DNA from: a bacterium
GTDB taxonomy: Bacteria > Planctomycetota > SZUA-567
Direction of reading: 5' to 3'
NCBI GenBank assembly: GCA_003249795.1
Contig: QKHZ01000252.1
Coordinates: 1 to 37,484, forward strand
DNA: 37,484 nucleotides
The first letter of the stretch is position 1. Each line of letters starts with the position of its first letter. This document shows, one piece after another, positions 6,562 to 24,480 of the stretch. The notes beneath the pieces were generated by a model. It had not been told where the DNA came from. It made no database searches and saw nothing but the letters and a program-made list of their open reading frames with translations. A program made the position numbers and the translations under genes.

Positions 6562-6569
6562 TGGCCTGC

Positions 6570-7352: not shown

Positions 7353-7397
7353 GTTGTTCCTTTCGTAACCGTATTTCAACCGGATTCTGGTTGGCTT

Positions 7398-8099: not shown

Positions 8100-9299
8100 T
8101 TAGTTATCCATTCCTGCGTTTTGTGCTTCCGGATGATAGCCGATCCGGTTTTCTTTCATGTCAAACAGTGCAACCGCTACATGGCGATGATAACGATTGA
8201 AAATCGCCAGTGCAATCCTTCTTGCGAGTTCATCGCCTAAAATGGATCTCTTTTCCGGTGAAAGCGATTGGATGATTGCCTCAACTGTTTCGCCTTCATT
8301 TTGAGTTGCATTGTCTTTGAGTCCGCAATCATGAGCACATTGCGAAACGACCGGAACGGCTGACCCCGAGTGTGCCGAGTGCGTATCCCATTCGTTGTTG
8401 ATCAGTTTCGCAAGTTTGCCCGGATGTCCTGCAACGATGATGTGTTCAAAACCGCGTCCCTCGCGCGTCGCTTCTTCGAGGGCGATGCCCCACGCGTTAC
8501 TGACTTCAGCCAGTTCGTTATCGGCAATCGGGCGGATGTTCGGGTCTTTTTCTGCAGCGCGCGCGCCGATATGACCGGGAACAAGGACAAGTCGTTTAAC
8601 TTTTTCGCCATCTGCCACGCGGATCGAGCAGCGGACGGTCTCTTCAATCGCTTCATGAGAAAATGGCCGCACGCGTCCGGTTGTGCCGAGAATCGACAGC
8701 CCGCCGACGACACCAAGGCGTGGGTTGAATGTTTTTCGCGCAAGCTCTTCGCCATTGTCGATGCCGACGGTGAGGCAGACTGTTAAGCCTGTCGCGCTGC
8801 GGACGGCGTTATAAATCATTTTTCGCGGAACAGGATTGACCGCCGGTTCACCGCATGCAATGGATAGTCCGGGTTTGGTGACGGTGCCGACACCGGAGCC
8901 TGCCAGTAAAAAACAGCGATTGCCGATTTCAACGGCATTCTTGGGCTGTGTGATCAGATGCGCCGGATTTGTCTCTCCGTTGTCAAACGCGTCAACCCGC
9001 ACGCGGACAAGGCAACCGTCAGTGATGTCGGGATCGTCGCCGGAGTCTTTGAGCACTCCCGCTTCTGCCGAAAAAATCGGATGATGTTGCATGTATGAGC
9101 CGGAATATTGCGGTGGTTGAAGCAGACGCGCGAAAACGGTTTTGACCGAAACCGAACTGCCGTCGGGAAGAATCAAGTCGACAACATAGGGGAAATACGC
9201 GTCGTTCTCCGCTGAGGCGGAGAGTAGCGTTGCCGCTGCATAAGCGGCTGCGGCTGCACACGTACCGGTTGTGATTCCCTGCCGCAGTTCTTCGCTCAA
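8100..9299 (-). CDS. cbiD: cobalt-precorrin-5B C1-methyltransferase
   Basis: A 399-residue CbiD, specific to the anaerobic pathway, which methylates C1 of cobalt-precorrin-5B with SAM. The N-terminal motif LRQGITTGTCAAAAAYAA, the DDPDITDG motif, GSGVGTVTKPGL and the long GVVGGLSILGTTGRVRPFS block identify it. It is slightly longer than the usual 350-380 residues, with extra sequence at the C-terminus. ATGA overlap (4 nt) with the preceding cbiX-cbiC stop indicates coupled translation. Together with cbiG it shows that ring contraction is oxygen-independent. Confidence 0.95.
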   Translation of the reverse strand: MSEELRQGITTGTCAAAAAYAAATLLSASAENDAYFPYVVDLILPDGSSVSVKTVFARLLQPPQYSGSYMQHHPIFSAEAGVLKDSGDDPDITDGCLVRVRVDAFDNGETNPAHLITQPKNAVEIGNRCFLLAGSGVGTVTKPGLSIACGEPAVNPVPRKMIYNAVRSATGLTVCLTVGIDNGEELARKTFNPRLGVVGGLSILGTTGRVRPFSHEAIEETVRCSIRVADGEKVKRLVLVPGHIGARAAEKDPNIRPIADNELAEVSNAWGIALEEATREGRGFEHIIVAGHPGKLAKLINNEWDTHSAHSGSAVPVVSQCAHDCGLKDNATQNEGETVEAIIQSLSPEKRSILGDELARRIALAIFNRYHRHVAVALFDMKENRIGYHPEAQNAGMDN

Positions 9300-10303
9300 A
9301 TGGAAGCCTTTCCAACGTTACGAATCAGAACTGCAAGGGCGTTGAGTGTTGCCGCCGCCGCAGGGCTTCCGCCGCGCATTGAGATATTGGTGATGTACGG
9401 GATGTCGTTGCAGGCCGCGAGTGCCGACTTGGACTCGCGCGCCCCGACAAAGCCGACCGGAAGTCCTACGACGAGTGCTGGCCGGACGCCTTCCTCTTTC
9501 CAGAGCCGCATGACCTCCCAGAGCGCGGTCGGTGCGTTGCCGATGGCAATGATGGCGCCGTTCATTTTTTCAGCCAGTGTGCGCATACTGGCGACGGCGC
9601 GGGTGGTGCCTTCCTGTTTTGCCCGCGCAGCTACGTCAGGATCGCGCATCAGGCAGATGAGTTCGGATTCGGTTTTGGTTACGCCGGAAAGAAGGATTGT
9701 GCTATCGCATATGATCGGAGCCTTGCATTTCAGCGCACGGATTCCGCAGGCGACAGCCTCCGGATGAATGCGCAACGTTTCTGCGAAACTGAAATCTGCT
9801 GTTGAGTGAATGATCCTGCGCACGATGCTGCGTGAAGGTTCTTGCCAGTCAGTATGCGCGAGCCGCTGTTCGATCATCTCGTGGCTGCGTTTTTCAATTT
9901 CATCGCCCAATTCAGGCAACTCGTCAATGAGCGCAACTTCACGTTCAATCCGTTCGACAAGAAGGTCTTCTAACCGCATGTCATTTTCAAGTCCCGGCAG
10001 AACCGTGATCCTGATCGCGAGGCGTTGCGCGCATTCTGCTGCAAGTTTCGGCAGGTCTTCGCGGACGTGGTTTCCGTTTTGTAAAAAGTACGGAAGCAGC
10101 AAGATTTCCTGCACGCCGTCAGCGGCGATCGTAACGATCGCGTCAGTGACTGCAGGACTGCCAAATGACAAAAACGCGGCTTCGACTCGTGTTGCCGGAA
10201 AAATACGGGAACGCACCTGCACGACGAGTTTGGCCGCATTGGCGTTTGCCTCCTCTTCCCGGCTTCCGTGGATAACGACAATCACGGCGCGTTGTTCAGC
10301 CAT
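9296..10303 (-). CDS. CbiX sirohydrochlorin cobaltochelatase fused to CbiC precorrin-8X methylmutase
   Basis: A 335-residue two-domain enzyme. Residues 1-125 are a short CbiX: the metal-site motifs V-x-IH12GSREEEAN and LLPYFLQNGNH79VREDLP are intact, so it should insert Co2+ into sirohydrochlorin in the cytoplasm. Residues about 130-335 are CbiC/CobH, which moves the C11 methyl to C12 to give cobyrinate. The RRIIH166STADF motif carries the family's catalytic histidine, followed by GIRALKCKAPIICDSTIL and VGLPVGFVGA. One enzyme thus acts near the first and the last steps of ring synthesis. The start at 10303 is supported by AAGGAAGG 8-9 nt upstream; a longer frame to 10402 runs into cbiA and is rejected. 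It follows cbiA by 35 nt and overlaps cbiD by 4 nt. Confidence 0.92.
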   Translation of the reverse strand: MAEQRAVIVVIHGSREEEANANAAKLVVQVRSRIFPATRVEAAFLSFGSPAVTDAIVTIAADGVQEILLLPYFLQNGNHVREDLPKLAAECAQRLAIRITVLPGLENDMRLEDLLVERIEREVALIDELPELGDEIEKRSHEMIEQRLAHTDWQEPSRSIVRRIIHSTADFSFAETLRIHPEAVACGIRALKCKAPIICDSTILLSGVTKTESELICLMRDPDVAARAKQEGTTRAVASMRTLAEKMNGAIIAIGNAPTALWEVMRLWKEEGVRPALVVGLPVGFVGARESKSALAACNDIPYITNISMRGGSPAAAATLNALAVLIRNVGKASI

Positions 10304-10338
10304 TTTTCGAGTCCTTCCTTTTATTGATCGATAGCAGT

Positions 10339-11769
10339 TTATCTGTCTGCAGCGGCGCACCATCGGACGAAGGCGGCGGTGCTTTCGGGGTGTGCCGCCC
10401 AATGAAGGTGTACGTATCCGGCCAGAATGTTTTCTGAAAAATAACCTTCCGGTGTTGGTTCACTTTGTCTGCGGTAATTCACGTCATAAATCGTTTGCCA
10501 CGGCGGGCTGCTAAGCCAGTGTGAAATCTCAGAGTAATGAAATTCATGTCCGCGCAATGTTGTGCCAGCGTTTCCCCAGGGTCCCGGTGCGCACAAATGC
10601 ACTTCTGCAAAGCCAAGTCGTTTTCGTTTTTCGCACATCGCAATCGCAACGGGAATCACCCCGCACATTTCATGCCGGTTGGCGTCGCTGTCAATGACGT
10701 GATCGGCAAGGTACATGAATCCGCCGCATTCAGCGTAGATGCGTTTGCCGCTTGCCGCAAATAAGTGGATTTGAGTGCGGATGGCTTTGTTTTCGGATAG
10801 TTGTTTTGCAAAAACCTCCGGATAGCCGCCGCCGAAGTAGATCGCATCGAGTCTGTCTGGCAGTTCACTGTCATGCAATGGCGAAAATTCGACTAACTCC
10901 GCTCCCGCATTTTTCAACGCACGTAAGTTGTCAGGATAATAAAACTGAAACGCCTCGTCTTTTGCGATGCCAATTCTCGCGATCATCTTTGTTGCTGTGG
11001 TTTTCAATGAGGCAAAATCTGAAGGCTCGTCGCGCACGGTCAATTTTTGTAATAATGAAAAATCAATTGCCTGCTCACATGCGTCGGCCATTGCATTCAG
11101 AATTGTTTCAAGATCTCCCGCTTCCGTTGCCTGGACAAGGCCGAGGTGGCGGCTGGCGAGTGTCGGAAACGCGCCCCGCTTGATCGCGCCGATAAGCGGC
11201 GGAAGACCGGCGCTTTCGAGTGCATCGCGGACAAGTTCGGCGTGGCGGTCTGAGCCGAGGCGGTTTGCAATAACTCCGCATACGCGGACATCCGGTTCCA
11301 GTTCGCAAAAGCCTTTGACGACTGCCGCAACGCTGCGTCCCATTGATGATGCATCAACGACCAGCACGACCGGCAGGTTCAAAGCGATTGCCATCTCCGC
11401 GGTGCTTCCTGCCAGACTGTCAGCGTCTGCACCATCGTAAAGCCCCATGACTCCTTCGACAATTGCTGTATCGGCAGCTTCAGTCTGTGCAGCAAAGGAT
11501 TGATGGCAATAGGGCAGTCCCATCATCCAGCCATCAAGGTTGAATGTCGTTCGACCTGCCGCTTGTGTCAGAAATGCCGGATCGATATAGTCGGGGCCCA
11601 CCTTGAACGGTTGTACGGTTTTACCCATGTGTGAAAATGCACGGCATAGGCCGAGCGTGACGCTGGTTTTTCCTGTACCGCTGCAGGTGCCGCCGATCAC
11701 AAACGCCTGTCGGGCATGTGTCGTTTCGGGCATCGCCTGCGGTGTTGTTTCCGGTTGGTGGTCTGTCAC
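10339..11769 (-). CDS. cbiA: cobyrinic acid a,c-diamide synthase
   Basis: A 476-residue ATP- and glutamine-dependent amidase that forms the a- and c-carboxamides of cobyrinate. The N-terminal P-loop (VIGGTCSGTGKTSVTLGL, about 24-41) and the VEGVMGLYDGAD motif are typical. The C-terminal glutamine amidotransferase-type domain contains YAECGGFMYL with the nucleophilic Cys, and the late HEFHYSE and HLHWAAHPE motifs. Length is normal. The start is GTG with AGGA at good spacing, just 2 nt after the cbiB stop; the ATG 12 codons on is a weaker choice. Confidence 0.94.
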   Translation of the reverse strand: MTDHQPETTPQAMPETTHARQAFVIGGTCSGTGKTSVTLGLCRAFSHMGKTVQPFKVGPDYIDPAFLTQAAGRTTFNLDGWMMGLPYCHQSFAAQTEAADTAIVEGVMGLYDGADADSLAGSTAEMAIALNLPVVLVVDASSMGRSVAAVVKGFCELEPDVRVCGVIANRLGSDRHAELVRDALESAGLPPLIGAIKRGAFPTLASRHLGLVQATEAGDLETILNAMADACEQAIDFSLLQKLTVRDEPSDFASLKTTATKMIARIGIAKDEAFQFYYPDNLRALKNAGAELVEFSPLHDSELPDRLDAIYFGGGYPEVFAKQLSENKAIRTQIHLFAASGKRIYAECGGFMYLADHVIDSDANRHEMCGVIPVAIAMCEKRKRLGFAEVHLCAPGPWGNAGTTLRGHEFHYSEISHWLSSPPWQTIYDVNYRRQSEPTPEGYFSENILAGYVHLHWAAHPESTAAFVRWCAAADR

Positions 11770-11771
11770 GT

Positions 11772-12812
11772 TTATGATCCTGCCTGTTCACTGTTAACTA
11801 GAGACAGGATAACGCAAAAAACATCCGGTGCATACAGAATAATCGCAGAGCCTGCAAGCATCAGCAGCGTAAAAACGATCGATGCGATGCGGATTACTCT
11901 GGTCGCTTCACGCAGGAGTGGCGTTTGAAGTAGTCTTGCGCCGTTACCAATGGTTGGATAATCGGCCCACTTTCCCGCGTAGCGCGTCGGCCCGCCAAGG
12001 GTGACGTCAAGAAGCCCGGCCAGAGCTGCTTCTCCCCAGCCTGAGTTCGGACTGCTGTGGTGGCCATGATCAATCAGCGTGATGCGCCAGACCCGCATCG
12101 GGCTTGTGTGCATGCAGAGTGCCGTCAGCATCATCGCCAGCGTTGTCAGTCGCGCGGGAATGAAGTGCACACAGTCATCGAGTCTTGCTGCGCACCATCC
12201 AAAGTGCAGATAGCGTTCGTTTTTATATCCGTACGTCGCGTCCAGCGTATTGATAACGCGTAGTGCAATCGCCAGCGTCGCCGCTCCTGTTGGCCCGCCG
12301 ATCCACCAGCCGATCACCGCCCAGAATAATGCGCTGATGACGCCGTCGATCAGGTTTTCTCCCGCGCTTTCAAGTCCTGCGCGGACAATGCCGTCTTCCT
12401 CTAATACTTCCGTGTCACGTCCGACAATCATACTGACAGCTTTGCGACCATCCTCGACTCCGCCTGACTCAAGCGCTTCCGCGACCCGCCTGACGTGGCT
12501 GGCCAGATCGTTTATTGCAATTGTAAAATAGATCCAGATCCCGGAGACCAGCAGGCCGAACCACGGGGAAATTTTCAGCGCACCGGTTGTGCTGAGTCCT
12601 GCCAGTGTACACCAGACCGCGATGTTGAGGAAGACACTGATAATGCCCGCCAGCTTTTGATTGGAGATGATCGCACGCGTGATTTTTTCAAACGGGATAG
12701 CGCACAGCCCGATTCCGCGGACAGGATGCGGCAGCCACCGGGGGTCGCCGAAAATGGCGTCAAACCCAAGCGCCAGAATAAGCAGAATCGTCAGGCCTAG
12801 AATCCCATCCAC
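11772..12812 (-). CDS. cbiB: adenosylcobinamide-phosphate synthase
   Basis: A 346-residue integral membrane protein of the CbiB/CobD(Pseudomonas) family, which joins aminopropanol (phosphate) to adenosylcobyric acid. Family marks: GFDAIFGDPRWLPHPVRGIG at the N-terminus, SMIVGRDTE, ENLIDGVISALFWAVIGW, and NSGWGEAALAGLLDVTLGGP. About five membrane segments are visible. Start is GTG with AAGGA upstream, overlapping the end of the cobD-cbiP fusion by 16 nt. It sits next to the gene supplying its aminopropanol substrate. Confidence 0.94.
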   Translation of the reverse strand: MDGILGLTILLILALGFDAIFGDPRWLPHPVRGIGLCAIPFEKITRAIISNQKLAGIISVFLNIAVWCTLAGLSTTGALKISPWFGLLVSGIWIYFTIAINDLASHVRRVAEALESGGVEDGRKAVSMIVGRDTEVLEEDGIVRAGLESAGENLIDGVISALFWAVIGWWIGGPTGAATLAIALRVINTLDATYGYKNERYLHFGWCAARLDDCVHFIPARLTTLAMMLTALCMHTSPMRVWRITLIDHGHHSSPNSGWGEAALAGLLDVTLGGPTRYAGKWADYPTIGNGARLLQTPLLREATRVIRIASIVFTLLMLAGSAIILYAPDVFCVILSLVNSEQAGS

Positions 12813-15460
12813 TCGCGGATCCTTTTCATGTCGACATTCTCGCGGACAATCTGCGCCAACTTATTGAGTGCAGCATCGATATCGTAATGCGCCTGAACCG
12901 ACTGTAGCGGTTGCAGCCCTTTGCGCATTCGTGCGCGGTCGAGCCACCAGCGGCGGAATTCGTCGGCGTCGAAAATGCCGTGCAGGTATGTCCCCCACAC
13001 AGGGCGGGTTGTCAGTTCAAAGCCGATCGCTTCGCCGTCATTTCTGGTCAGGATCGGTTCGACGTCTCCGGTTGCCACGGTGCGCCCGTGGTGGATTTCA
13101 TAACCGCGGACGGTTTTGCCCGAAGTCTTGTGCGTGCCTTCGGTCTGAAGCAGGACTTTGTCCAACTCCAGTGTCGTCGTCAGCGGCAGGATGCCGAGGG
13201 CGGGGCACTGGCCGCGTGCGGATTCGAGTTTGTGCGGGTCGGCGACGGTGGTTCCCAGCATCTGCAGCCCGCCACAGACGCCGACGATCTCGGCTGTGCA
13301 CGCATCGGACGTCAGCCACTTGGCAAAGCCGGAGGACTCCAGCCACGCGTAATCATCGAGTACGTTTTTACTACCCGGAAGGATTACGATATCGGCGCCC
13401 TTTGCCTGCTCTGGCGAACGGACTGTTTTCAGTGTCACATCCGGTTCGGTGATCAGTGGGTCGAAGTCGCTGAAGTTGGAGATATGAGGAAGCTCCACCA
13501 GCGCGATCGTTAGCGCATCCTCGCGTGTACTCAGTCTTGTTGACTTCTGTCCTGACTTGAACGAGACCGAGTCTTCATCAGGGACGCCGAGATCTTTCAG
13601 GTACGGGATCACTCCGACAACGGGACGGCTAGTGTAATTTTCAACATATTCATGTGCAGGCGCAAGCAGCGACGCGTCGCCGCGAAACAGGTTTACCAGA
13701 TAGCCGCGGATCAGTTTGCGCTCCCAGCTTTCGAGCACGTCCATCGTTCCGATCAGCGATGCGTAGACGCCGCCGCGGTCGATGTCACCGATCAGCAGCA
13801 CCGGACTGTTTGCATATTCGGCCATACGCATGTTGACGATGTCGTGCGACTTGAGGTTGACTTCCCCCGGGCTTCCCGCGCCTTCAAGGACGACAATGTC
13901 ATACTCTGCGGCAAGGTCATCGAACGCGGTTCGTGCGGCGGCGGCGGCCTGCGGTTTGTAGGCGTGGTATTCTTTGACGCGCATGTTGCCAACCGGATGG
14001 CCGTTGACGATTACTTGGGAACCGACGTCACTCGATGGCTTCAGCAGGATCGGATTCATGCGCACGTCAGGATCAAGCCTGCACGCCTGCGCCTGCACGA
14101 CCTGTGCGCGTCCCATCTCGCCGCCGTCGCGGGTGACAAACGAGTTCAGCGCCATGTTCTGCGCTTTAAACGGCGCGACACGGTAACCGTCTTGCAGAAA
14201 GATCCGGCAGAAGGCGGCTGCTAATACGCTTTTACCCACGTTTGATCCGGTGCCTTGCAGCATCAGCGTCTTGGCCCGACGGTTCTGGATTTTTGCATTC
14301 TTGACGGTGACTGGGATCTGCGCTGCCTCAGAGGCGGGAAAACAGGAGATGCCGATTACGCGGAGTGCATCCACCAGTTTTTTCTGCTCATGCGCAGGGC
14401 GAACGGCAAAGCGCAGATACCGGTTGCTAAGCCCTGTGTAGTTGTCGCATGCGCGCACGGCGATTCCGTCGCCGAGTAGAAGCGTATCGACAATTTCTTT
14501 TGCCACCGGCCAAGGCGCGTCAAAACGACACAATACATAGTTGGCTTTTGCTGGATAAACCGTTACGCCATCAAGTTTGCCTAATTCATTACACAGATCT
14601 GCACGTAGTTCATTTGTCATGCAGATTGTTTGATCGGCGTAGTTTTTGTCTGACAATGCGCGGATTCCCACCGCCTGCGCAAGCGTGTTGACGTTCCACG
14701 GCGGAATCGCTTGCCGGATTTTGCTTGCGACTTCAACCGATGCGGCGATACAACCAAGACGGAAACCGGCAATGGCATAAAACTTTGTCAGCGAGCGCGA
14801 GACAATTGCGTTTGCCGGAACAGTCGGCAGGATCGACACCTCAGGGCAGAAGTCGGCAAAGGCTTCGTCAATCACAAACCACGTTTCTGCGTGTTGCATG
14901 ATAAAGGAACGCAGGACTTCTGGCGCGGTCGCTGATGAGGTTGGATTGTTGGGCTGTCCGAAAAACACGAGATCGCCCGGCTTGATCTTCTGGGCAAGGT
15001 CTGCCAGATCCGGCAGAAAGCCCCGGCTCTCATCCAGAAAAAAAGTATCGACTGCAACGCCCGCGGCTTCACACGCGCGAGCGTAGTCGATGTAACCGGG
15101 CCCCGGAACCCATGCGCGGTTGACATCCAGCGCACGCGGGATCGCGTAGAGCAGTTCGGACGATCCGTTACCGGCGACGATCTGGTCGGCCGACAGCCGG
15201 TGCGCGTCGGCAAAGGCCTGGCGGAATTCATCGGCATACGGGTCGGGATAGGCTTCGGCTTCCTCCAGTGTGCGGTTGACAACCATGCGCAACCATGCGG
15301 GAGATCCCAGCGGGTTCAGGTTTGCACTGAAGTCGAGAATGTCACTGACCGGTCGTCCTGCACGTTTAGCCAGCTGCCGGAGATTACCGCCATGTCCGCC
15401 CGAGCCAAGGGCGTGTTTCTTGTCGTTGGTGATTTGATTTGCTTGCGTTTGCGCCGCCAT
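12797..15460 (-). CDS. CobD threonine-phosphate decarboxylase fused to CbiP adenosylcobyric acid synthase
   Basis: An 887-residue bifunctional protein. Residues about 18-375 are a PLP-dependent class I/II aminotransferase-fold domain like CobD: GGHGGN near the start, FSANLNPLG, NNPTS, and the PLP lysine K226 in SLTKFYAIAGFRLG. This domain makes (R)-1-aminopropan-2-ol phosphate. Residues about 398-887 are CbiP/CobQ, which amidates carboxylates b, d, e and g: P-loop LQGTGSNVGKS (401-411), APFKAQNMALNS, the GATase motif GVCGGLQMLG with the catalytic Cys, and WGTYLHGIFD with the catalytic His. A 20-residue basic linker joins them. I chose the ATG at 15460 (GGGG upstream); the ATG at 15496 has no site. 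The gene precedes cbiB, whose two substrates both come from this protein. Confidence 0.93.
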   Translation of the reverse strand: MAAQTQANQITNDKKHALGSGGHGGNLRQLAKRAGRPVSDILDFSANLNPLGSPAWLRMVVNRTLEEAEAYPDPYADEFRQAFADAHRLSADQIVAGNGSSELLYAIPRALDVNRAWVPGPGYIDYARACEAAGVAVDTFFLDESRGFLPDLADLAQKIKPGDLVFFGQPNNPTSSATAPEVLRSFIMQHAETWFVIDEAFADFCPEVSILPTVPANAIVSRSLTKFYAIAGFRLGCIAASVEVASKIRQAIPPWNVNTLAQAVGIRALSDKNYADQTICMTNELRADLCNELGKLDGVTVYPAKANYVLCRFDAPWPVAKEIVDTLLLGDGIAVRACDNYTGLSNRYLRFAVRPAHEQKKLVDALRVIGISCFPASEAAQIPVTVKNAKIQNRRAKTLMLQGTGSNVGKSVLAAAFCRIFLQDGYRVAPFKAQNMALNSFVTRDGGEMGRAQVVQAQACRLDPDVRMNPILLKPSSDVGSQVIVNGHPVGNMRVKEYHAYKPQAAAAARTAFDDLAAEYDIVVLEGAGSPGEVNLKSHDIVNMRMAEYANSPVLLIGDIDRGGVYASLIGTMDVLESWERKLIRGYLVNLFRGDASLLAPAHEYVENYTSRPVVGVIPYLKDLGVPDEDSVSFKSGQKSTRLSTREDALTIALVELPHISNFSDFDPLITEPDVTLKTVRSPEQAKGADIVILPGSKNVLDDYAWLESSGFAKWLTSDACTAEIVGVCGGLQMLGTTVADPHKLESARGQCPALGILPLTTTLELDKVLLQTEGTHKTSGKTVRGYEIHHGRTVATGDVEPILTRNDGEAIGFELTTRPVWGTYLHGIFDADEFRRWWLDRARMRKGLQPLQSVQAHYDIDAALNKLAQIVRENVDMKRIREWMGF

Positions 15461-15501
15461 TCTATACCCCAGATCGATTAAACATAATGTTGGCATCTAT
15501 T

Positions 15502-16323
15502 TCATGTTTTGACTGAATTATTTTTCGTGCCTGTTGTTCCGCGTTCATCCCAACCACGTCGTCCGGTCCGGATGAGAACGGTAGCCATGTAGCCGGGTTG
15601 TTCGTCGCCGAGTTGCGTCGCGTCCTGCCAGATCACTTCGCGCCCTTCCTGTTCGATATAGAACGCGAACTTTGCAGAGCGCAGCAGTCCTTTTTCGCTT
15701 AGTAATTTCTTTAATGCGCCGACTTGTTTGCCTGCCTTGTAGAGCGCGAGGGCTTCGGCCGTGTTTAATGCTTTAGCGACTTCGTCGAGGTTTGTCGCAG
15801 TCATGATCAGGAACCGGTCTTCCTGCAGGCACAGGATTTCTCCGCAACGGCTGGCGGCGGCCTGAAACGCGCTGATTCCGGGGACGATATGGACTTTTTC
15901 TTTCGGCATCCGACTTTCCAGACCTTCAAGCAGGTACGCGCTTGTGCTGTAGATCATCGGGTCGCCCAGCGTGATCTGCACGACCGATTTGTCTTGAGCG
16001 CACCACTGTTTTGTCTTTTCGGCGATCTCTGCCCAGCAGGCGAGGGTCGCGGCTGTATCGCGCTTCATCGGATAGATGTGTTCGATGATTTCCTGCGCAC
16101 TCGTTACGTATGGCCGGACTGCATCAAGGGCGAGGCTGTCATTCGCTTTTTCCGAGCGCGGTGCGATGACAAAGTCTGCCGTCTGGATCAGGCGGACTGC
16201 GCGAATTGTAAGCAGATCCGGAGAGCCGGGACCGATGCCGAGGGCGTAGAAATGCCCCTTCTGCGCAGTTAGCGGCGCGGCACGTTCAGGGAACTCAATT
16301 GGCGTGGCGCAATCTGTTTTCAT
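15502..16323 (-). CDS. cbiL: cobalt-precorrin-2 C20-methyltransferase
   Basis: A 273-residue SAM-dependent methylase of the CbiL/CobI family that methylates C20 of cobalt-factor II/precorrin-2. Motifs: FYALGIGPGSPDLLTIRAV, FVIAPRSE, LGDPMIYSTSAYL, and HIVPGISAFQAAASRC, all typical of CbiL. The first about 20 residues are outside the fold and the last about 15 are polar. It lies 63 nt after hemL and 41 nt before the cobD-cbiP fusion. The ribosome site is weak (GAG). Confidence 0.93.
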   Translation of the reverse strand: MKTDCATPIEFPERAAPLTAQKGHFYALGIGPGSPDLLTIRAVRLIQTADFVIAPRSEKANDSLALDAVRPYVTSAQEIIEHIYPMKRDTAATLACWAEIAEKTKQWCAQDKSVVQITLGDPMIYSTSAYLLEGLESRMPKEKVHIVPGISAFQAAASRCGEILCLQEDRFLIMTATNLDEVAKALNTAEALALYKAGKQVGALKKLLSEKGLLRSAKFAFYIEQEGREVIWQDATQLGDEQPGYMATVLIRTGRRGWDERGTTGTKNNSVKT

Positions 16324-16386
16324 TATTTCTCATTTCTATTTGGTTAAACGCTTTGGGTTCTCTAAAAAGCATGCTCTCGTTTTTGT

Positions 16387-17679
16387 TTATGCAATGGATT
16401 TGAATGCGTTTTTCTGAGCGTCCAGTGTTTTCTGGATATCGTCTTCCGTATGGGCCGCGCTGACGAACATCGCTTCAAACGCGGACGGCGCAAGATATAC
16501 ACCCGCTTGCAGCATTGCCGCATGATACCGGCCATACAGTTTCGCATCGGCTTTCATCACCTCTGCGTATGACGTGACGGATTCTATTCCGAAGAACAAG
16601 GTCATCATTGATGCAATCTGATTCAGCGCTGCCGGAATCCCTGCGTCGTTCAAATTCTGTTTGGTGCCGTCTGAGAGCATCTGTGCAAGACGCTGCATTT
16701 TCGGGTACGGGTTTTCATTTTCCAGAATTGAGAGAGTCGCAATACCGGCTGCGCACGCGACAGGGTTGCCGCTGAGAGTGCCGGCCTGATAGACAGGTCC
16801 GGTCGGCGCGATCTGTTGCATCAAGTCTTTGCGTCCGCCATACGCGCCGATCGGCATGCCGCCGCCGATGATTTTGCCCAGAACCGTCAGGTCTGCAGTG
16901 ACGCCGAACGCAACACGTGCGCCGCCCAAACCGAGGCGGAATCCGGTAATGACTTCATCGAAAACCAGTAGCGCACCGTATTGGTCGCACAGCTTTCGCA
17001 GTCCCTGTAAAAATCCTTCGTTTGGCAGAACCACGCCCATGTTCGCCGCTACCGGTTCGACGATTACGCACGCGACATTGTTCTCCTGTGTTTTGAAACA
17101 CGCTTCGACTGAGGCGAGATCGTTATAGGTCGCCGTCAGCGTGTCTTTGGCTGCGCCTTCTGTGACGCCGGGGCTGCTGGGTGTGCCGAAGGTCAGCGCA
17201 CCGCTTCCGGCTGCGATTAAAAATGAATCGGCGTGTCCGTGATAGCATCCTTCAAATTTGATGATGGCGCTGCGTCCAGTTGCGGCACGCGCAAGCCGGA
17301 CGGCAGACATCGCAGCTTCTGTGCCGGAGTTGACAAGGCGCAGCATCTGCATGTGCGGCATATGCTTTTGAATGAGTTCGGCAAGCGTAATCTCATAGCG
17401 GTGGCAGGCGCCGTAGCTGAGTCCTTTTACCGCCGCTTGTTGCACTGCATCGACAACGGCAGGATGGGCATGTCCCAAAATCAGTGGCCCCCAGCTGCAG
17501 ACGTAATCGATCCAGCGATTGCCTTCAACATCGGTCATGGTCGACCCGTTTGCATGGTCGATAAAGCGCGGGCTTCCGCCGACAGAGCCGAATGCGCGAA
17601 CGGGGGAGTTGACTCCTCCCGGCATTAGGGTGCAGGCTGTTTTGTAAAGTTGGCCGTTATCTGTTGCCGCATTGCTCAT
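16387..17679 (-). CDS. hemL: glutamate-1-semialdehyde 2,1-aminomutase
   Basis: A 430-residue PLP enzyme that turns glutamate-1-semialdehyde into 5-aminolevulinate, the second C5-pathway step. Family signatures are complete: GGVNSPVRAF at the start, NSGTEAAMSAVRLARAATGR, YHGHADSFL, VFDEVITGFR, and the PLP lysine in LGKIIGGGMPIGAYGG. Length is normal. The ATG has AAGGAA upstream. It lies just after an intrinsic terminator and opens the second half of the cobalamin operon. With hemA at the head of the operon it gives the pathway its own supply of 5-aminolevulinate. Confidence 0.95.
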   Translation of the reverse strand: MSNAATDNGQLYKTACTLMPGGVNSPVRAFGSVGGSPRFIDHANGSTMTDVEGNRWIDYVCSWGPLILGHAHPAVVDAVQQAAVKGLSYGACHRYEITLAELIQKHMPHMQMLRLVNSGTEAAMSAVRLARAATGRSAIIKFEGCYHGHADSFLIAAGSGALTFGTPSSPGVTEGAAKDTLTATYNDLASVEACFKTQENNVACVIVEPVAANMGVVLPNEGFLQGLRKLCDQYGALLVFDEVITGFRLGLGGARVAFGVTADLTVLGKIIGGGMPIGAYGGRKDLMQQIAPTGPVYQAGTLSGNPVACAAGIATLSILENENPYPKMQRLAQMLSDGTKQNLNDAGIPAALNQIASMMTLFFGIESVTSYAEVMKADAKLYGRYHAAMLQAGVYLAPSAFEAMFVSAAHTEDDIQKTLDAQKNAFKSIA

Positions 17680-17720
17680 CGCGTCGTTTCCTTCTCGTTC
17701 CTGAATCGTTTTGTTTAATC

Positions 17721-17771: not shown

Positions 17772-17789
17772 GTGTTGCGTTATTTTAAC

Positions 17790-18680
17790 TTACGAGTTCA
17801 GTGTGTCCAGCAGGCGTTTGACGAATAATTCGACAACTTTCGGGTTGGAGCCAAGACCGGTGCTGGCGGTTGCCGGAAGGCCGAGGGTCTTTTTCCAGCT
17901 GTCATCTTCATCACCCATGACGTCGTTCATGATGTGATCACCGGCGACGACCATCATCGGGACGAAGTGAACCGCTTTTGCGCCCCTCTTCTTCACGTCT
18001 TCGAACGCTTTTTCTGTTCCCGGTTTTCCTTCAACCGATGCGAGGACGATATTTTTGTTCATGCCGCGTGCGAGCTTGTCCATTTCGATCAACTGGTCGT
18101 TAAACTCAGGATGGTGGTCATTACCGTGTCCGCAGAGAACGGTCGCGGTGTCTCCGCCCTTGAACTGGTCTGAGAGCGCAGCCAGAAGTGCCTTGCGCGA
18201 CGCATCGTCGGTCAACAACGGCAGGCCGTACTTGGCTTTGAGCGAGCCGGTTGCGACGTCTTTGACTTCGTTGTATTCCTGACCCGGTGAAACGTGCAGC
18301 GACTGGACGACGATGTCGGTTACGCCTTTGCTCTGCAGGTCGGCATAGACTTCCGTCAGGTTCATCAGCGGCACCTTGCGCGCAAAGAGGGTGGTCTGAC
18401 CCTGCGAGCGCAGCTTCTTCAGGATGATGCTGGAGGTAAACGCCCAGCGGACGTCATAGTCGGGGCAGGCTGCAGTGACGGCGCTGTCGATTGATTCCAG
18501 CGCGGCTTGTGCTTCGGCGACACTGGTACCGAATGCGGCGAGGACGATTGTCGGTTTCTTCACGGTCTCCACTTTCTTTGCATCTGTGCTTGCATCACTG
18601 TTTGCATTGCAGCCGCTTGCGAAAAGCGCGGCAACAGACAGTACCATTGCTGACAACATTGCGATTCCACTTAACTTCAT
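17790..18680 (-). CDS. cbiK: exported CbiK-type cobaltochelatase lipoprotein
   Basis: A 296-residue CbiK-family chelatase with an export signal. Residues 1-24 form a signal peptide ending ALFASGC24, a likely lipobox, so the protein should be lipid-anchored outside the inner membrane. The catalytic region shows VLAAFGTS (46-53), VQSLH129VSPGQEYNE, CGHGNDHHPEFND and VPMMVVAGDHIMND, matching the metal-site motifs of CbiK. Periplasmic CbiK (CbiKP) is known from Desulfovibrio vulgaris, where it binds heme. I recall that the heme ligand there is a histidine near residue 96; no histidine is present in residues 43-128 here. Start overlaps the btuF stop (ATGA), so the two are coupled. A terminator follows. 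Since CbiX is fused to CbiC in the same operon, this is not needed for cytoplasmic cobalt insertion. Confidence 0.92.
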   Translation of the reverse strand: MKLSGIAMLSAMVLSVAALFASGCNANSDASTDAKKVETVKKPTIVLAAFGTSVAEAQAALESIDSAVTAACPDYDVRWAFTSSIILKKLRSQGQTTLFARKVPLMNLTEVYADLQSKGVTDIVVQSLHVSPGQEYNEVKDVATGSLKAKYGLPLLTDDASRKALLAALSDQFKGGDTATVLCGHGNDHHPEFNDQLIEMDKLARGMNKNIVLASVEGKPGTEKAFEDVKKRGAKAVHFVPMMVVAGDHIMNDVMGDEDDSWKKTLGLPATASTGLGSNPKVVELFVKRLLDTLNS

Positions 18681-19699
18681 TTTGCTTCTCCCTTCACCAT
18701 TTTCTTCGTGTTTCCCAGCTGGCCGTAAAATCGGTCCAGCAACAATGAAATGCTTTCCAATAATCGCGGTGTCGGCCGCGAAACTTTTTCCTCATCCAGA
18801 ATCAGGATTCGACCTTCCTTGATCGCAGGCAGAAGGGCGAAGTCCTTGCGGATCTGGTCTTCAGTGATATCGTTCATCTTTCCCTGTTGCGCCAGAAAGA
18901 AATCGATTTCGTCCGCATGCAGGAAGACGCGTTCTTTGTTGTATGCGGCGATGTTGCTGCCCTGAACAGAGGCGGCATCGGTTGCGATATTGACGCCGCC
19001 AGCGGATTCAAGCACATATATGGCTATTGAATCAGGGCTGAAGGTCTTCACCTTGTCGTGCATGGATTCAAAGTACACTCGCTTGCGCTTTGCCATGTCC
19101 TGCGGGATTCGCCCGTTCTGTAAAGCGGTCAGTTTCGCTTTGAACTCATTGATCATGTTCTCAGCCTGCGTTCGTTGGCCGCTGAGTGCACCGAGAGCCA
19201 GCCAGTACGAAAACATCTGCTGCGGCGAACACGGCTGCAGGGCAAGTACGGTTACGCCGGACTGTTCCAGTTGCGAAACCAGTCCTTTGTACGCGCGCTC
19301 ATGCATTGGCCGCATCAGCACTAAGTCAGGGCGCGCGGCCAAAAAGTTTTCCGCGCCGCTTTTCGGGTCAAAAACAGGGAGCCCAAGCGCCTTGTCGTCA
19401 CCGCGGCTGACGCCGACGAGTTTGTTTTTTGCGCCCATGAAAACGAGGTTTTCGGTATGCGCGCCGTACAGCGAGATGATGCGCGAGAATGTTTTACCTT
19501 GTTGAATCAAGGATAGGATTGCTTCGCCGTTTTCAAGATTTTCGATTCCGTCGGTATCGTCTTTCACCACTGCCGTTTTTTCTTCACTGAATCCACAGGC
19601 GCAGAAAATCCATGTCAAAAGACAAATGCCGATCGTGGCGAAGATGTTTGTTCCGCTGCTGCGTAACCATGGCTGCGTGTGTTGTTGGCTGAGTTGCAT
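18677..19699 (-). CDS. cobalamin/iron-type ABC transporter substrate-binding lipoprotein (BtuF-like)
   Basis: A 340-residue class III periplasmic binding protein. The N-terminus has a hydrophobic signal (about 19-34) ending in the Cys-containing segment IFCACG, probably a lipoprotein. The mature part has the fold of the FecB/BtuF group: RIISLYGAHTENLVFMGA at the start, LVGVSRGDD, ARPDLVLMRPM, then a long helix and the C-terminal ILILDEEKVSRPTPRLLESI. The ligand could be a corrinoid, heme or siderophore. Cobalamin/corrinoid is favoured because the gene is in a cobalamin-riboswitch operon between btuD and cbiK. It overlaps cbiK by 4 nt. AGGA lies close to the ATG. Confidence 0.88.
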   Translation of the reverse strand: MQLSQQHTQPWLRSSGTNIFATIGICLLTWIFCACGFSEEKTAVVKDDTDGIENLENGEAILSLIQQGKTFSRIISLYGAHTENLVFMGAKNKLVGVSRGDDKALGLPVFDPKSGAENFLAARPDLVLMRPMHERAYKGLVSQLEQSGVTVLALQPCSPQQMFSYWLALGALSGQRTQAENMINEFKAKLTALQNGRIPQDMAKRKRVYFESMHDKVKTFSPDSIAIYVLESAGGVNIATDAASVQGSNIAAYNKERVFLHADEIDFFLAQQGKMNDITEDQIRKDFALLPAIKEGRILILDEEKVSRPTPRLLESISLLLDRFYGQLGNTKKMVKGEAK

Positions 19700-19740
19700 T
19701 GTCCTGACTTTCTTTTAAAATAATCGATTCCCTGCCAAAC

Positions 19741-20607
19741 TTAATTTATTATAGATGACGCGGGCGTTGCCTGTGCTGACTGCGGGAAGAGCGAAATCTC
19801 CATCCCCTTGTTTTTCTGAGCCTGTTGAATCCGGCAACCGACCTGAAAGACGTCTTCGATCCGTTTTTCAGTAAATACATCTTCCGTCTGTCCATGCGCA
19901 ACGATTTGTCCGCTTTGCATCATGATTGCATGTTTGGCATAGAGCGCGGCGAGGTTCAGCTCGTGCAGCACTGTGACGACAGTCTTGCCGCTTTCTGCAA
20001 GTTTACGCAGTGACTGCAGTAGCTCCAGCGCGTGGTGGACATCGAGGTTCGCCGTCGGTTCATCCAGAAGCCACACGTCGGTTTCGGCAGCCTGAATGCG
20101 CGCAAGCGCCACTCGTTGCCGCTCGCCTCCGGAAAGTTGCGTGACAGGCTTGTCGGCCATCCCGTGCAGCTCATGCGTATGGATCGCCTCTTCAGTTGCC
20201 TGCCAGTCTTTTGCCGTCATCGTTCCAAAGCGGCCTGTATACGGAAATCGCCCCATCGCGACGACTTCGCGTACGGTAAAGTCAAACGCGATTTCATTTG
20301 CTTGCGGCAGGTACGACACCTGTCTTGCATATTCTTTGCGCGGCCACTGATTCAGTATCTTGTTCATGAAAATGATCTTGCCCTGTGCCGGAACGTGGTT
20401 GCGCGAGAGCAGGCTCATCAACGTTGACTTGCCGCATCCGTTGGGGCCGACAATTGCCGTGAATGTCCCGCGTGTAATGCCGCATGTGAGTCCATGCAAT
20501 ACCTCTTGCTTACCATAGGCGAAGAACACATCGTTTAATTGAAAAATGGTTTCTATATTTGCGCTGGTATTCTTGGACGCCGATTCAGTCATGCGATTGC
20601 ACGTCAT
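19741..20607 (-). CDS. cobalamin/iron-type ABC transporter ATPase (BtuD-like)
   Basis: A 288-residue ATPase of the FepC/BtuD/HmuV group. Walker A GPNGCGKST (54-62), signature LSGGERQRVALAR, Walker B VWLLDEPTANLD and the H-loop VLHELNLA are all intact. I chose the ATG at 20607: GGGAGG is 7 nt upstream and the codon overlaps the btuC stop (ATGA). The first 20 residues lie before the fold. A frame reaching up to 20937 is not genuine because it runs inside btuC. It powers uptake through the btuC-like permease. Confidence 0.93.
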   Translation of the reverse strand: MTCNRMTESASKNTSANIETIFQLNDVFFAYGKQEVLHGLTCGITRGTFTAIVGPNGCGKSTLMSLLSRNHVPAQGKIIFMNKILNQWPRKEYARQVSYLPQANEIAFDFTVREVVAMGRFPYTGRFGTMTAKDWQATEEAIHTHELHGMADKPVTQLSGGERQRVALARIQAAETDVWLLDEPTANLDVHHALELLQSLRKLAESGKTVVTVLHELNLAALYAKHAIMMQSGQIVAHGQTEDVFTEKRIEDVFQVGCRIQQAQKNKGMEISLFPQSAQATPASSIIN

Positions 20608-21701
20608 GCTCCGCCTCCCTGTCGCATGGCGCGTGAGCGGAAGACGATGCAGAAGAATGGCCCACCGATCAGCGAAGTCAGAATCCCGACCGGAACCTCT
20701 ATCGGTAGGATCGTACGCGATGCGGTGTCTGCCATCAGCAGCAGGACTCCGCCGCCCAAGGCGGATGCGATTAAAAGATGTTTGTGCGATGGGCCAAGCA
20801 GAAAGCGCATGACGTGCGGCAGGATCAGTCCGGCAAATGCGATCATCCCCGCAGCCGCAACAGTGACGGACGCAGCCAGTGATCCGACTAGCAAAGCAAT
20901 CAGCCGGACGCGGCTTGCTGACACGCCGAGTGAACACGCGGTCTGTTCGCCGAGGGCTAAAATATCGAGGGGCCTAGCCATCCACAAGCCGACGCTGAGA
21001 CAGCCGGTTAATGCTGCCAGCAGCCACACGGCCTGATCCCAGTTCGTGTTGGCGAAACTCCCCATCAGCCAGAATACGATCAGCGTCGCGCGCTCGTCGG
21101 CCAGAAACTTGATAAAGCCGATTCCTGCGGCAAGAATCGCCGAAACGATCACACCTGCCAGCACAAGATTGACCGTGGACAGTCGTCCGTTAAATGACGC
21201 GAGCATCAGCACCGCAAAGAGCGCAGCCGTGCCGCCACCGAATGCCCACACCGCAACCGGAATCCCAGCCAAAAATCCCAGCCCTGACCAACTTGCCAGA
21301 ACCGTGCTGAAGGTCAGGCCGATGGCCGCACCGAATGCGGCACCTGCCGAAACGCCAAGTGTATAAGGCTCTGCCAGAGGATTCAGCAGGCTGCCTTGCG
21401 CGAGGACGCCAGCTGCCGACAGAATCGCTCCAGCCAGAACCGCGCACACGACACGGCACAACCGCACGTCGAGGATCACGTGCCGGGTCACATTTGAGAT
21501 TGCCGCGTTTTCTTGTTCAGCGTCTGCGAATTCATGCAAACTGGGTGCGGAACCTGTTACAGCTTGCCACACGACGGTCGCAACCGTTGACCAGCTTGTC
21601 GGGTACGCGCCGCTTGAGGATGCCCACAGCGTCAGCCCTGCCAGAAGGCAGACCAGAATGATCACAACGGCGGAAAACGGAACGCGTCCTGCGTGCTTCA
21701 T
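20604..21701 (-). CDS. cobalamin/iron-type ABC transporter permease (BtuC-like)
   Basis: A 365-residue FecCD/BtuC permease with about ten membrane segments. Family motifs: LRLCRVVCAVLAGAILSAAGVLAQ near residue 80-105 (R-L-x-R-V/A pattern), NPLAEPYTLGVSAGAAFGA, and the cytoplasmic coupling loop GMIAFAGLILPHVMRFLLGPSHK. It overlaps both neighbours by ATGA (with the Gate protein upstream and btuD downstream), so the transporter genes are tightly coupled. GGAGGGCGG lies before the ATG. Confidence 0.93.
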   Translation of the reverse strand: MKHAGRVPFSAVVIILVCLLAGLTLWASSSGAYPTSWSTVATVVWQAVTGSAPSLHEFADAEQENAAISNVTRHVILDVRLCRVVCAVLAGAILSAAGVLAQGSLLNPLAEPYTLGVSAGAAFGAAIGLTFSTVLASWSGLGFLAGIPVAVWAFGGGTAALFAVLMLASFNGRLSTVNLVLAGVIVSAILAAGIGFIKFLADERATLIVFWLMGSFANTNWDQAVWLLAALTGCLSVGLWMARPLDILALGEQTACSLGVSASRVRLIALLVGSLAASVTVAAAGMIAFAGLILPHVMRFLLGPSHKHLLIASALGGGVLLLMADTASRTILPIEVPVGILTSLIGGPFFCIVFRSRAMRQGGGA

Positions 21702-22792
21702 CCTGCCGCCCTCCAGAAGAACGCAAGCAGAAGCGTTGCGATGATCATGGAGAGGATGCGGAGCGTCTGGGCAACTGTGACAACAACCGTTCCGCGTTTC
21801 AGTCCCAAGACCCCGACGTACGATGCGCCGCCATGCCGCAGTACGCGGATCGGTGTGCTCAGGATTGAACCGGCCAGAAGCAGCAGTGCCGCGCCGCGCT
21901 CGTCAAGAAGCGAATTTTTCATCAGGTCGCCAGCCGTGCCAGCCGCCGTCATCATCGACGCAAAACTTCCGGCAATCACCTCCGGTGCGTGCGGGCCGAT
22001 TTTTGACAGAAGCGGGCTGCCGGAGAGCCAGTCCTTGAGTCCGTCAAGCGCACCCAACCGTGTCAGGATCATGATGACAGCACAGAGTGGCAGAGTAATC
22101 ACAGCGATCCGGCGGAAGCTTTGAAAAAACTCTGACCAAACGCTTTTTGACGCATGGTGATGCTGCGTGTTTTTCTTGGAGGTAACGTCAGTAATTTCAG
22201 TGCTATCACGTTCTGCGTTTTCGGCGCGCTTTTCAATTTCGGGTGTCAACGTTTCATCCGCTTGCGTTTTCTCTTCTGCTTGAAGCGTTGCTGTGTTTTC
22301 ATTTGTGTTGATGTCACCTGCGTTTGTTTCAGACTCTTGTGCCAGATGCTGGTTCGCGTGAAGTTTTCGTCCGGCAAAGAGGTATAAAAACGTTCGGGCA
22401 ATTCCTGTAGCGATTTGTACGCCAAATACAGCCGCGGCGACTTTTGTACTCGTCAGCAGCGCCAACGGAAACCACTGGCTCGGCAGGTGACGCAATTGGG
22501 TCGGGAATGTATTGAGCATCACGCCAAGGATCACCTGTTTCTCACTTAATGTTTTCGCATCACGAAATCGCGACAGTGTTCCTGCGGCGGCGGCTCCCGA
22601 TGCAAATGCCGCACAAAAAGACGTTGCCAGTTCCGGTGGGACGTGGCCGATCCGTAAAACCGGCGCTGTGACTTTGCCAAGCCAGGCCGTCCATCCCCAT
22701 CGCTCGATCAGTACCCCCACCAGAACGCCGATGGCTAATTCTGATGCCAGGCGCAACAAATCCCAAATCAGAGCCAGACTGATATGCATCAT
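21698..22792 (-). CDS. Gate-domain (nucleoside-recognition-like) membrane protein
   Basis: A 364-residue membrane protein with two hydrophobic halves (about 1-145 and 225-364). Each half carries a PE-(V/L)-A-(T/G)-SF-A-(A/S) type motif (HVPPELATSFCAAFASGAAAAGT; HAPEVIAGSFASMMTAAGTAGD), so the protein is an internal duplication of the Gate fold seen in spore-maturation and nucleoside-transporter-like proteins. Function in this setting is unknown. Between the halves is a 70-residue acidic, polar linker (about 146-215) ending with a QHHH stretch. It overlaps hemA and btuC by ATGA at both ends. The location, between hemA and btuC, fits a transporter, possibly of a tetrapyrrole or cobalt species, but that is inference. 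Confidence 0.8.
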   Translation of the reverse strand: MMHISLALIWDLLRLASELAIGVLVGVLIERWGWTAWLGKVTAPVLRIGHVPPELATSFCAAFASGAAAAGTLSRFRDAKTLSEKQVILGVMLNTFPTQLRHLPSQWFPLALLTSTKVAAAVFGVQIATGIARTFLYLFAGRKLHANQHLAQESETNAGDINTNENTATLQAEEKTQADETLTPEIEKRAENAERDSTEITDVTSKKNTQHHHASKSVWSEFFQSFRRIAVITLPLCAVIMILTRLGALDGLKDWLSGSPLLSKIGPHAPEVIAGSFASMMTAAGTAGDLMKNSLLDERGAALLLLAGSILSTPIRVLRHGGASYVGVLGLKRGTVVVTVAQTLRILSMIIATLLLAFFWRAAG

Positions 22793-24192
22793 GAGTTGGC
22801 GTCCGTTTTGCTGGAAATTGGGGCGGAGGTCGCGTTATTGCATTTGCAGGATGCCGGTGTTGCCGCTCCGCATGAGCAGGACGCGCTGAATTCCGGTGGC
22901 ATTTCCGGATAGATGTCTGCGCACGGCAATCCTTCCCGGACAGCCTGCGCCATCGCCTTCATCGGCCAGTCCAGCATTCTCGTCAGGAGAGTATGCGAGA
23001 TTTTTTTGAGCTGTTCCTGCATGGGGTCCGGGAGTTTGTTTTCCTGTAAAATATTCTCGACTTCCGCGCGCATGGCGGTTTCAACCTGAGCACGCCAACC
23101 GGCGAGGCATTTTTCCGATAGGCTCGCATTCAGGCATTGCCAGAACTGATCGGCTTCCGCTGCGAGGATCGGGCGGATGCGTCCGGCTTCGGCGATGCGT
23201 TTGTCGCGGTGCTGTTGTGCGAGATCTGCCATTGTATCGAGGTTAAGGATTGTGACGCCGTCGATGTTCGCAACGTCATCAGCGACATCACGCGGAACGG
23301 CCAGGTCGACTAGCAGTAGCGTGTTTTTGCCGTGTTGCGGATGCGATGCGTCTGCCCCCCGTGCGGCCAGCGCGGCCTTTACCATTTCTGTTGTGATGAC
23401 AGCGTGCGGTGCGCCTGTGCAGGAGACAAAGACGTCGCTCTCGCTCAGAATCTGCTGGACATCGTCGCGCAGGGCTTCGACGCCGTCCCATTCTTGTGCA
23501 ATCGTCCGCGCACGATAGAGATCCCGGCTGATGACACGGCCGCCACGGATGCCGAGTTTGGCGAAGGTCTGCACCGCAGCCCGCCCGACAGGGCCTGTTC
23601 CCCAGACAGATGTGTTTTTGCCAGATAACCCGGGCAGTCGGCGGAGCACTTCCTCAACGGCGACGCTGGCGACCGACACGCGGAAGCGTCCGATTCGTGT
23701 GCCGCTGCGGATATCTTTGGCGACAGAAAATGTTTTTTGAAATAGAGCGTTGAGAATCCGTCCGGCCGTGCCGCAGGAGAGGGCGTCGGCATATGCTTTT
23801 TTGAGTTGCCCGAGGATTTCGGTTTCACCGATCACCAGCGATTTCATCCCACAGGCGAGTGAGAAGACGTGCTCGATCACCGCCGCGCCTTCAAATTCCA
23901 CGCCGCTTTTTCTGAACTGTTGCAGAAGTTGTAGTGACGGGGTCGAATTGCCAGCGGCTGAACAAGTTCTTCCGTGAAGCAGGATCTCGGCCAAGTCCGG
24001 CGAGCAGTTGCCGTTTGTAGCCAGATACAGTTCTGTGCGGTTACAGGTGCATAGCAAGAGAGCTTCGCGGACGCCGTCGGTTTCAAGTGCGTAGCGCATC
24101 AATCGGGGCGCTTCTGCACGGGGAACGGCGGCAAGTTCCCGTATGGCAAGGTCGGCGGTTTCGTGGCTGAGTGAGAAGCAAAGTAGGCGCAT
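22789..24192 (-). CDS. hemA: glutamyl-tRNA reductase with Cys-rich tail
   Basis: A 467-residue glutamyl-tRNA reductase, the first C5-pathway enzyme. The catalytic Cys50 lies in CTCNRTELY, at the same position as in the E. coli enzyme. Later motifs are SLACGMKSLVIGETEILGQLKKAY, RIGRFRVSVASVAVE, the NADPH loop VWGTGPVGRAA and LVDLAVPRDVADDV. The C-terminal dimerisation region (about 330-430) is present. A tail of about 35 residues follows, with C-x-C-x7-C-x-C (CSCGAATPASCKC), not usual for the family. I chose the ATG at 24192 because AAGGAA is 10 nt upstream. It heads the riboswitch-controlled operon. Confidence 0.93.
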   Translation of the reverse strand: MRLLCFSLSHETADLAIRELAAVPRAEAPRLMRYALETDGVREALLLCTCNRTELYLATNGNCSPDLAEILLHGRTCSAAGNSTPSLQLLQQFRKSGVEFEGAAVIEHVFSLACGMKSLVIGETEILGQLKKAYADALSCGTAGRILNALFQKTFSVAKDIRSGTRIGRFRVSVASVAVEEVLRRLPGLSGKNTSVWGTGPVGRAAVQTFAKLGIRGGRVISRDLYRARTIAQEWDGVEALRDDVQQILSESDVFVSCTGAPHAVITTEMVKAALAARGADASHPQHGKNTLLLVDLAVPRDVADDVANIDGVTILNLDTMADLAQQHRDKRIAEAGRIRPILAAEADQFWQCLNASLSEKCLAGWRAQVETAMRAEVENILQENKLPDPMQEQLKKISHTLLTRMLDWPMKAMAQAVREGLPCADIYPEMPPEFSASCSCGAATPASCKCNNATSAPISSKTDANS

Positions 24193-24207
24193 CGGCGCGT
24201 TTTTCCT

Positions 24208-24254: not shown

Positions 24255-24474
24255 GGATGGAATCCCTATCCCAGACCGGGGACGAGAACCGGCATTCAGG
24301 TGGTCTTCTGGCTTCCGGGTCATCCTCGGACCTGCCTTCCCTGCGGGGTCATTCGCAAGTGGCGTTATAGGCCGTTGTCACCGGTTACAGCAGCATGTCT
24401 TCTGCAGCGGACTCGCACCGCTTTCCATCTCCTGTTGGCATTACGCCGACGGGAGTCCCTGAATCCATTTCTAA
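24255..24474 (-). ncRNA. cobalamin (adenosylcobalamin-type) riboswitch
   Basis: Read on the minus strand, the leader carries the signature elements of the cobalamin riboswitch in the right order. First comes GGGACTCCC with GATGGAAAGCGGTGCGAGTC. Next is the conserved GCTGCTGTAAC region, then GCCACTTGCG, and last the B12-box-like GGAAGCCAGAAGACCACCTG at about 24295-24315. It starts about 7 nt after a strong promoter and ends about 65 nt before the hemA start. In this class, adenosylcobalamin binding switches off expression of the downstream genes. I see no terminator between the aptamer and hemA, so control is probably at translation initiation, but this is inference. Confidence 0.9.
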
Positions 24475-24480
24475 CGAATG

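Follow-up and report, generated by a model that had tools for sequence, protein, structure and literature searches.

Exported CbiK-type chelatases are not new, with CbiKP of Desulfovibrio vulgaris and IhtB of Porphyromonas gingivalis both preceding the protein described here. CbiKP is reportedly a periplasmic cobaltochelatase (in work by Lobo from 2008 and 2017), which we take to be a soluble periplasmic form and from which the CbiK studied here differs by its lipobox. The CbiKP gene belongs to a B12-element regulon together with btuCDF and cbiL (PMC545781), and because CbtX clusters with cbiK, Rodionov et al. predicted that it transports cobalt (PMC545781). IhtB is a CbiK-like lipoprotein found with IhtC-E (PMC10913741) in an organism reported to lack precorrin-2 synthesis (PMC6461909). 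Precorrin-2 salvagers have been described as a class among tetrapyrrole-precursor salvagers (Shelton 2019; PMC6461909, PMC8123684), for which the open-access literature that we searched names no system that takes up precorrin-2 or sirohydrochlorin. Here we analyze a window consisting of one complete contig of 37,484 bases (QKHZ01000252.1) from a planctomycete metagenome-assembled genome (MAG) that is 82% complete, in which a cobalamin operon includes consecutive genes for a Gate-domain membrane protein, a BtuCDF-like ATP-binding cassette (ABC) importer, and an exported CbiK. Already known are the exported CbiK of Desulfovibrio and the B12 riboswitch that ties it to btuCDF and cbiL, as well as CbtX, the Iht locus, and the class of salvagers. 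What is new, within the literature searched, is how widely the exported-CbiK/BtuCDF module occurs, that it supplies the only chelatase of many corrin makers, and that the genomes carrying it split cleanly by loss of sirohydrochlorin synthesis.

The core module, an exported CbiK plus an ABC importer, recurs within the window's own family as well as in further phyla and usually belongs to the B12 regulon. We suggest, with a probability of about 0.5, that the block in the window is an extracytoplasmic cobalt-insertion and import module that feeds corrin synthesis. The suggestion draws on what the sequence shows directly: a signal for export, catalytic residues that are intact, the order of the genes, the riboswitch, and patterns of co-occurrence and of gaps in the pathway. 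From these we infer which substrate is transported, in which direction the enzyme works, and that BtuF receives the product. Lipoprotein CbiK, held outside the inner membrane, would put Co2+ into sirohydrochlorin that is free or arriving in the periplasm, and the resulting cobalt-sirohydrochlorin (cobalt-factor II) would be bound by the BtuF-like lipoprotein, imported through BtuCD, and handed to CbiL, the next pathway enzyme. For the window organism, the module would add a route of salvage and cobalt capture to its own synthesis, and the riboswitch would shut this route when cobalamin is plentiful; in many other bacteria it would be the only apparent route. Gate/CbtX would be an optional helper for the passage of cobalt or possibly of tetrapyrroles.

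The N-terminus of CbiK, MKLSGIAMLSAMVLSVAALFASGC, has a positive n-region, a hydrophobic core, and an A-S-G|C lipobox (FASG|C), and its chelatase domain begins only at residue ~44, compared with residue 2–3 in Salmonella CbiK. Export was judged by inspection without a dedicated predictor; a first-pass annotation of the window had proposed an export signal and a likely lipobox, and by every sequence criterion available the protein indeed appears to be exported rather than cytoplasmic. The closest solved structures are D. vulgaris CbiKP (2xvx, E 2e-34), heme-binding FetB (9b86), and Salmonella CbiK (1qgo), and the nearest named match, from a Lentisphaeria bacterium, is 41% identical. Catalytic residues H154 and H216 of CbiKP correspond to H185 and H249 in the window and are invariant across all 102 domains compared, while N and T occupy the columns of H96 and H103, which we take, partly from the title of Lobo 2017, to be the heme-binding residues of CbiKP. 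It has been proposed for P. gingivalis Iht that such systems scavenge heme or iron, with exported CbiK binding heme or stripping its iron, and the window shares its gene set with Iht (PMC10913741), while the homologues FetB (PDB 9b86) and CbiKP bind heme; with the histidine pair missing and both riboswitch and operon being cobalamin ones, however, this is an improbable account of the window. A heme-binding role by analogy with CbiKP is ruled out for this protein by the same missing residues.

A scan of GTDB contigs yielded 80 CbiK loci, classified by N-terminal extension and hydropathy as 53 exported and 27 cytosolic, with one Methanosaeta locus (L044) that encodes one CbiK of each kind counted as cytosolic. 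Exported CbiK came from Clostridia, Spirochaetota, Synergistota, several delta-proteobacterial groups, Nitrospirota, and Lentisphaerota, and the CbiK tree requires eight switches of location, at least four of them supported. BtuC was encoded on the same strand within 6.5 kb in 33/53 exported versus 2/27 cytosolic loci (p=2.5e-6, uncorrected for kinship), a riboswitch lay within 6.5 kb upstream in 38 of the 53 exported loci (using a model built in this analysis), and CbiL directly followed the module in L041, L063, L104, and L025.

Conservation was also evident close to the window. Among relatives, cbiK adjoins BtuC, BtuD, and BtuF in eight loci (L020, L022–L025, L027, L028, and L026, with btuF undetected in the last), and one relative, G002, carries the order hemA-btuC-btuD-btuF-cbiK-hemL-cbiL (L020), which is exactly that of the window minus Gate. 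The Rfam cobalamin riboswitch was detected in 7/8 relatives' loci scanned (L028 not included), mostly immediately 5' of cbiK. CbiK and CbiD co-occurred among 60 relatives ([[8,2],[6,44]], p=4e-5), of which G001, G003, G008, G013, and G015 gave no match to CbiX. Rather than being scattered, cbiK stays next to btuCDF in these genomes, and the five-gene grouping exceeds chance because it recurs in other genomes; of the association of Gate, BtuCDF, and signal-peptide CbiK first proposed, the pairing of CbiK with BtuCDF recurs and Gate is optional. An additional, degenerate cobalamin riboswitch (36 bits) lies between btuF and cbiK in G002 (L020:5165-5233), which suggests that cbiK formerly stood under a riboswitch of its own.

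Several variants of the exported chelatase were observed. The exported and cytosolic CbiK of the Methanosaeta locus (L044:774-7039), found with BtuF and a Gate protein, are mutually nearest relatives, which points to a local duplication after which the signal was gained or lost. Two CbiK domains per exported chain occur in L048, L054, L061, and L092. In some clostridial exported CbiK lipoproteins (L111:5071-6423, L048:4139-6280, L051:9560-11149, and L085:9773-11149), the C-terminal domain looks similar to NEAT, a tetrapyrrole-binding domain family, the matches being weak (PF05031 at E 0.017 in L111, and E 6e-4 for a separate neighboring gene, L105:6564-6992); we count this similarity in favor of the proposed cobalt-insertion and import module. 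CbiK itself was considered as the binding protein in Clostridia where BtuF had gone undetected, and was ruled out by the PF01497 lipoproteins found there.

We searched 30 named exported-CbiK genomes whole, recovering CbiK in 30/30 and CbiD in 28/30. These genomes split cleanly into 16 with both uroporphyrinogen-III methyltransferase (SUMT) and precorrin-2 dehydrogenase and 14 with neither (p=7e-9 for a perfect split), without the mixed genomes that random gaps in MAGs would give; G073 was placed among the 16 although its methyltransferase match was split and just below cut-off. The 14 precursor-lacking genomes belong to Clostridia and Spirochaetales, all keep CbiD, and none has CobN by genome search, and in 13 of them the exported protein is the sole CbiK or CbiX found (G074 has a cytosolic second copy). 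From gene content, these 14 appear to keep the corrin pathway while being unable to make sirohydrochlorin, with the putative cobalt-inserting enzyme facing outward beside an importer, a combination that favors extracytoplasmic cobalt insertion and import. Metallation also seems to fit better than demetallation, because the catalytic histidines are invariant, the heme histidines of CbiKP are absent, CbiD is nearly always retained, and 14 genomes lack sirohydrochlorin of their own. The first proposal, in which a chelatase facing outward works with an importer and metallates or demetallates its substrate, is narrowed: export and the cbiK-btuCDF neighborhood are retained and metallation is the likelier direction, while Gate falls outside the core and the substrate is a predicted one. 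By the same gene content, these 14 of the 30 genomes would count as precorrin-2 salvagers in the sense of Shelton et al. (PMC6461909).

A number of points weigh against extracytoplasmic cobalt insertion. The 14 precursor-lacking genomes are for the most part MAGs, and the comparison of SUMT loss with cytosolic-only CbiK (SUMT in 7/27 cytosolic-CbiK versus 0/14 precursor-lacking loci) is at locus level only. Once kinship is controlled, the BtuC association comes down to only four supported independent pairs (2.1 for, 0 against) and is not significant. Free sirohydrochlorin in nature is an assumption, and a Met8-type precorrin-2 dehydrogenase, where present, could insert cobalt in the cytosol. 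Lastly, the window genome encodes SUMT-HemD and precorrin-2 dehydrogenase (both at C181), so that its organism is not a precorrin-2 salvager, and with CbiX and CobN present as well, the module is dispensable there; because of SUMT-HemD, the dehydrogenase, and CbiX, it would be only a supplement.

Somewhat more tentatively, we propose that external sirohydrochlorin is taken up as its cobalt complex by exported CbiK and a BtuCDF-type importer, which would make the module the uptake system of precorrin-2/sirohydrochlorin salvagers and explain the use of the corrin pathway by P. gingivalis; sirohydrochlorin makers without cytosolic CbiK or CbiX would then export the ring, load cobalt outside, and re-import it. 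How salvagers and P. gingivalis obtain a large charged isobacteriochlorin is not given in the literature searched, and the module would be a concrete, testable answer. If this is true, the cobalt of B12 could be obtained outside the metal-buffered cytosol, and CbiK genes of this kind, which current pathway scoring treats as proving de novo synthesis, would be miscalled.

The importer genes contain Peripla_BP_2, FecCD, and ABC_tran domains, but the names btuC, btuD, and btuF are valid at family level only, because all three miss the NCBIfam equivalog cut-offs (score/cut-off of 202/461, 138/281, and 27/234 bits, respectively). In searches of PDB, the BtuF-like protein matched 4m7o (E 6e-16) and, less closely, the vitamin B12-binding protein 5ysc (E 4e-4). 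This weak similarity, the Peripla_BP_2 and FecCD families, and control by a cobalamin riboswitch would all suit plain corrinoid uptake, in which cobalamin or cobinamide enters through BtuCDF and exported CbiK, instead of catalyzing a reaction, serves as a lipoprotein for corrinoid binding or hand-over. We consider this unlikely, given that both catalytic histidines of CbiK are invariant, that the module follows corrin-ring synthesis genes rather than mere B12 use, that the equivalog cut-offs are missed, and that the same genome encodes a second BtuCD and binding protein elsewhere. The latter genes, for a FecCD permease, an ATPase, and a binding protein, are found at C264:1667-8388 (L119), with a CobN-type chelatase subunit encoded after them; just upstream lies a cobalamin riboswitch (C264:8627-8787), but on the opposite strand and facing pilin-like genes. 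Another cobalamin riboswitch in this genome precedes a ThiC-family gene (L118:4394-6101, on C177) that passes the ThiC cut-off; its score against BzaB, a B12 lower-ligand protein, is 483 bits (cut-off 700), so that it may encode a lower-ligand synthase.

The Gate protein, previously regarded as an unexplained fifth member, is probably CbtX (PMC545781), as judged from its Gate domain and Desulfovibrio synteny in L075. It has the trait of CbtX (COG3366) in being a polytopic Gate-domain protein clustered with cbiK, and homologues adjoin cbiK/cbiL in Desulfovibrio (L075, E 3e-12) and Methanosaeta (L044, E 1e-15). It is nevertheless not core: G002 has the same operon without it, and most module loci keep BtuCDF but have no Gate, which rules out Gate as a conserved fifth module member. 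Under another explanation, CbiK gathers Co2+ outside the cell, Gate/CbtX imports it, and BtuCDF is an unrelated B12 importer that shares the operon. The predicted function of CbtX as a cobalt transporter, based on cbiK clustering (PMC545781), and the presence of Gate beside cbiK/cbiL in L038, L043, L075, L025, and G007 are in its favor, yet with most module loci having BtuCDF and no Gate, and with no conserved metal ligands standing out in the Gate alignment, we regard it as slightly less likely still than corrinoid uptake. A Foldseek search with the AlphaFold model of Gate, which is poor (predicted local distance difference test, pLDDT, of 63), gave no match below E=3.

All five genes proposed in the first-pass annotation are present on the minus strand below the cobalamin riboswitch, mostly joined by ATGA overlaps, and the cytoplasmic CbiX noted in the same operon proved to be a CbiX-CbiC fusion in a single open reading frame (Table 1). 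The minus-strand order under the one riboswitch is hemA–Gate–btuC–btuD–btuF–cbiK–hemL–cbiL–(cobD-cobQ)–cbiB–cbiA–(cbiX-cbiC)–cbiD/E/F/G/H/J, and the module is not self-contained, as the operon continues via hemL, cbiL, and the cbi genes. Between hemA and cbiK, four of five junctions are 4-nt ATGA overlaps (hemA/Gate, Gate/btuC, btuC/btuD, and btuF/cbiK), the exception being a 41 bp gap between btuD and btuF. The riboswitch is ~90 nt upstream of hemA, which starts with ATG, an upstream TTG at 24228 also being possible. Within 4248-8099 of the window, cbiE is present without an evident cbiT, which was not sought elsewhere in the genome.

Table 1. Features of the cobalamin operon in the window, in order of transcription
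Feature	Position	Strand	Supporting match
Cobalamin riboswitch, controlling the operon	24282..24477	minus	Rfam RF00174, 77.1 bits (gathering score 31.5)
hemA, encoding glutamyl-tRNA reductase, first in the operon	22789..24192	minus	TIGR01035, 262 bits (cut-off 209.6)
Gate-domain membrane protein in two halves, probable CbtX, optional partner	21698..22792	minus	PF07670, 38 bits
btuC-like FecCD permease	20604..21701	minus	PF01032, 266 bits
btuD-like ABC ATPase	19741..20607	minus	PF00005, 113 bits
btuF-like substrate-binding lipoprotein, N-terminal lipobox ..IFCA|C	18677..19699	minus	PF01497, 40.6 bits
cbiK, predicted exported lipoprotein class II chelatase	17790..18680	minus	PF06180, 164 bits (cut-off 26)
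hemL, directly after cbiK (gap 110 bp)	16387..17679	minus	TIGR00713, 611 bits
cbiL, methyltransferase whose substrate, cobalt-sirohydrochlorin, is the CbiK product	15502..16323	minus	TIGR01467, 179 bits (cut-off 163)
CbiX-CbiC fusion, cytosolic, second cobaltochelatase of the operon	9296..10402	minus	PF01903, 66 bits, and PF02570, 225 bits
Remaining corrin operon: cobD-cobQ fusion, cbiB, cbiA, cbiX-cbiC, cbiD, cbiE, cbiF, cbiG, cbiH, cbiJ	4248..15496	minus	Profile matches

Compared with described systems, the locus resembles that of CbiKP (2xvx), sharing a PF06180 chelatase with a signal peptide, the same catalytic histidines, B12-riboswitch control, nearby btuCDF and cbiL, a CbtX candidate, and a second cytosolic chelatase in the genome. 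It differs from CbiKP in lacking H96/H103, in having a CbiX-CbiC fusion as the cytosolic partner, and in that the module forms part of a single long corrin operon that also holds hemA and hemL. As in P. gingivalis Iht (IhtA-E; IhtB/FetB, PDB 9b86), a CbiK-like lipoprotein is combined with a substrate-binding protein, a permease, and an ATPase; however, no TonB-dependent receptor of the IhtA type is present in the window operon, where the genes across 4248-24228 are all accounted for, and Iht has been described as a heme/iron uptake system in an organism without precorrin-2 synthesis, which the window organism has. The BtuCDF B12 importer likewise consists of a binding protein, a FecCD permease, and an ATPase below a cobalamin riboswitch, but none of the window components reaches BtuC/D/F equivalog level and an exported chelatase is their permanent neighbor. 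Similar to precorrin-2 salvagers, 14/30 module genomes keep the corrin pathway without the precursor steps, whereas the window organism makes its own precursor.

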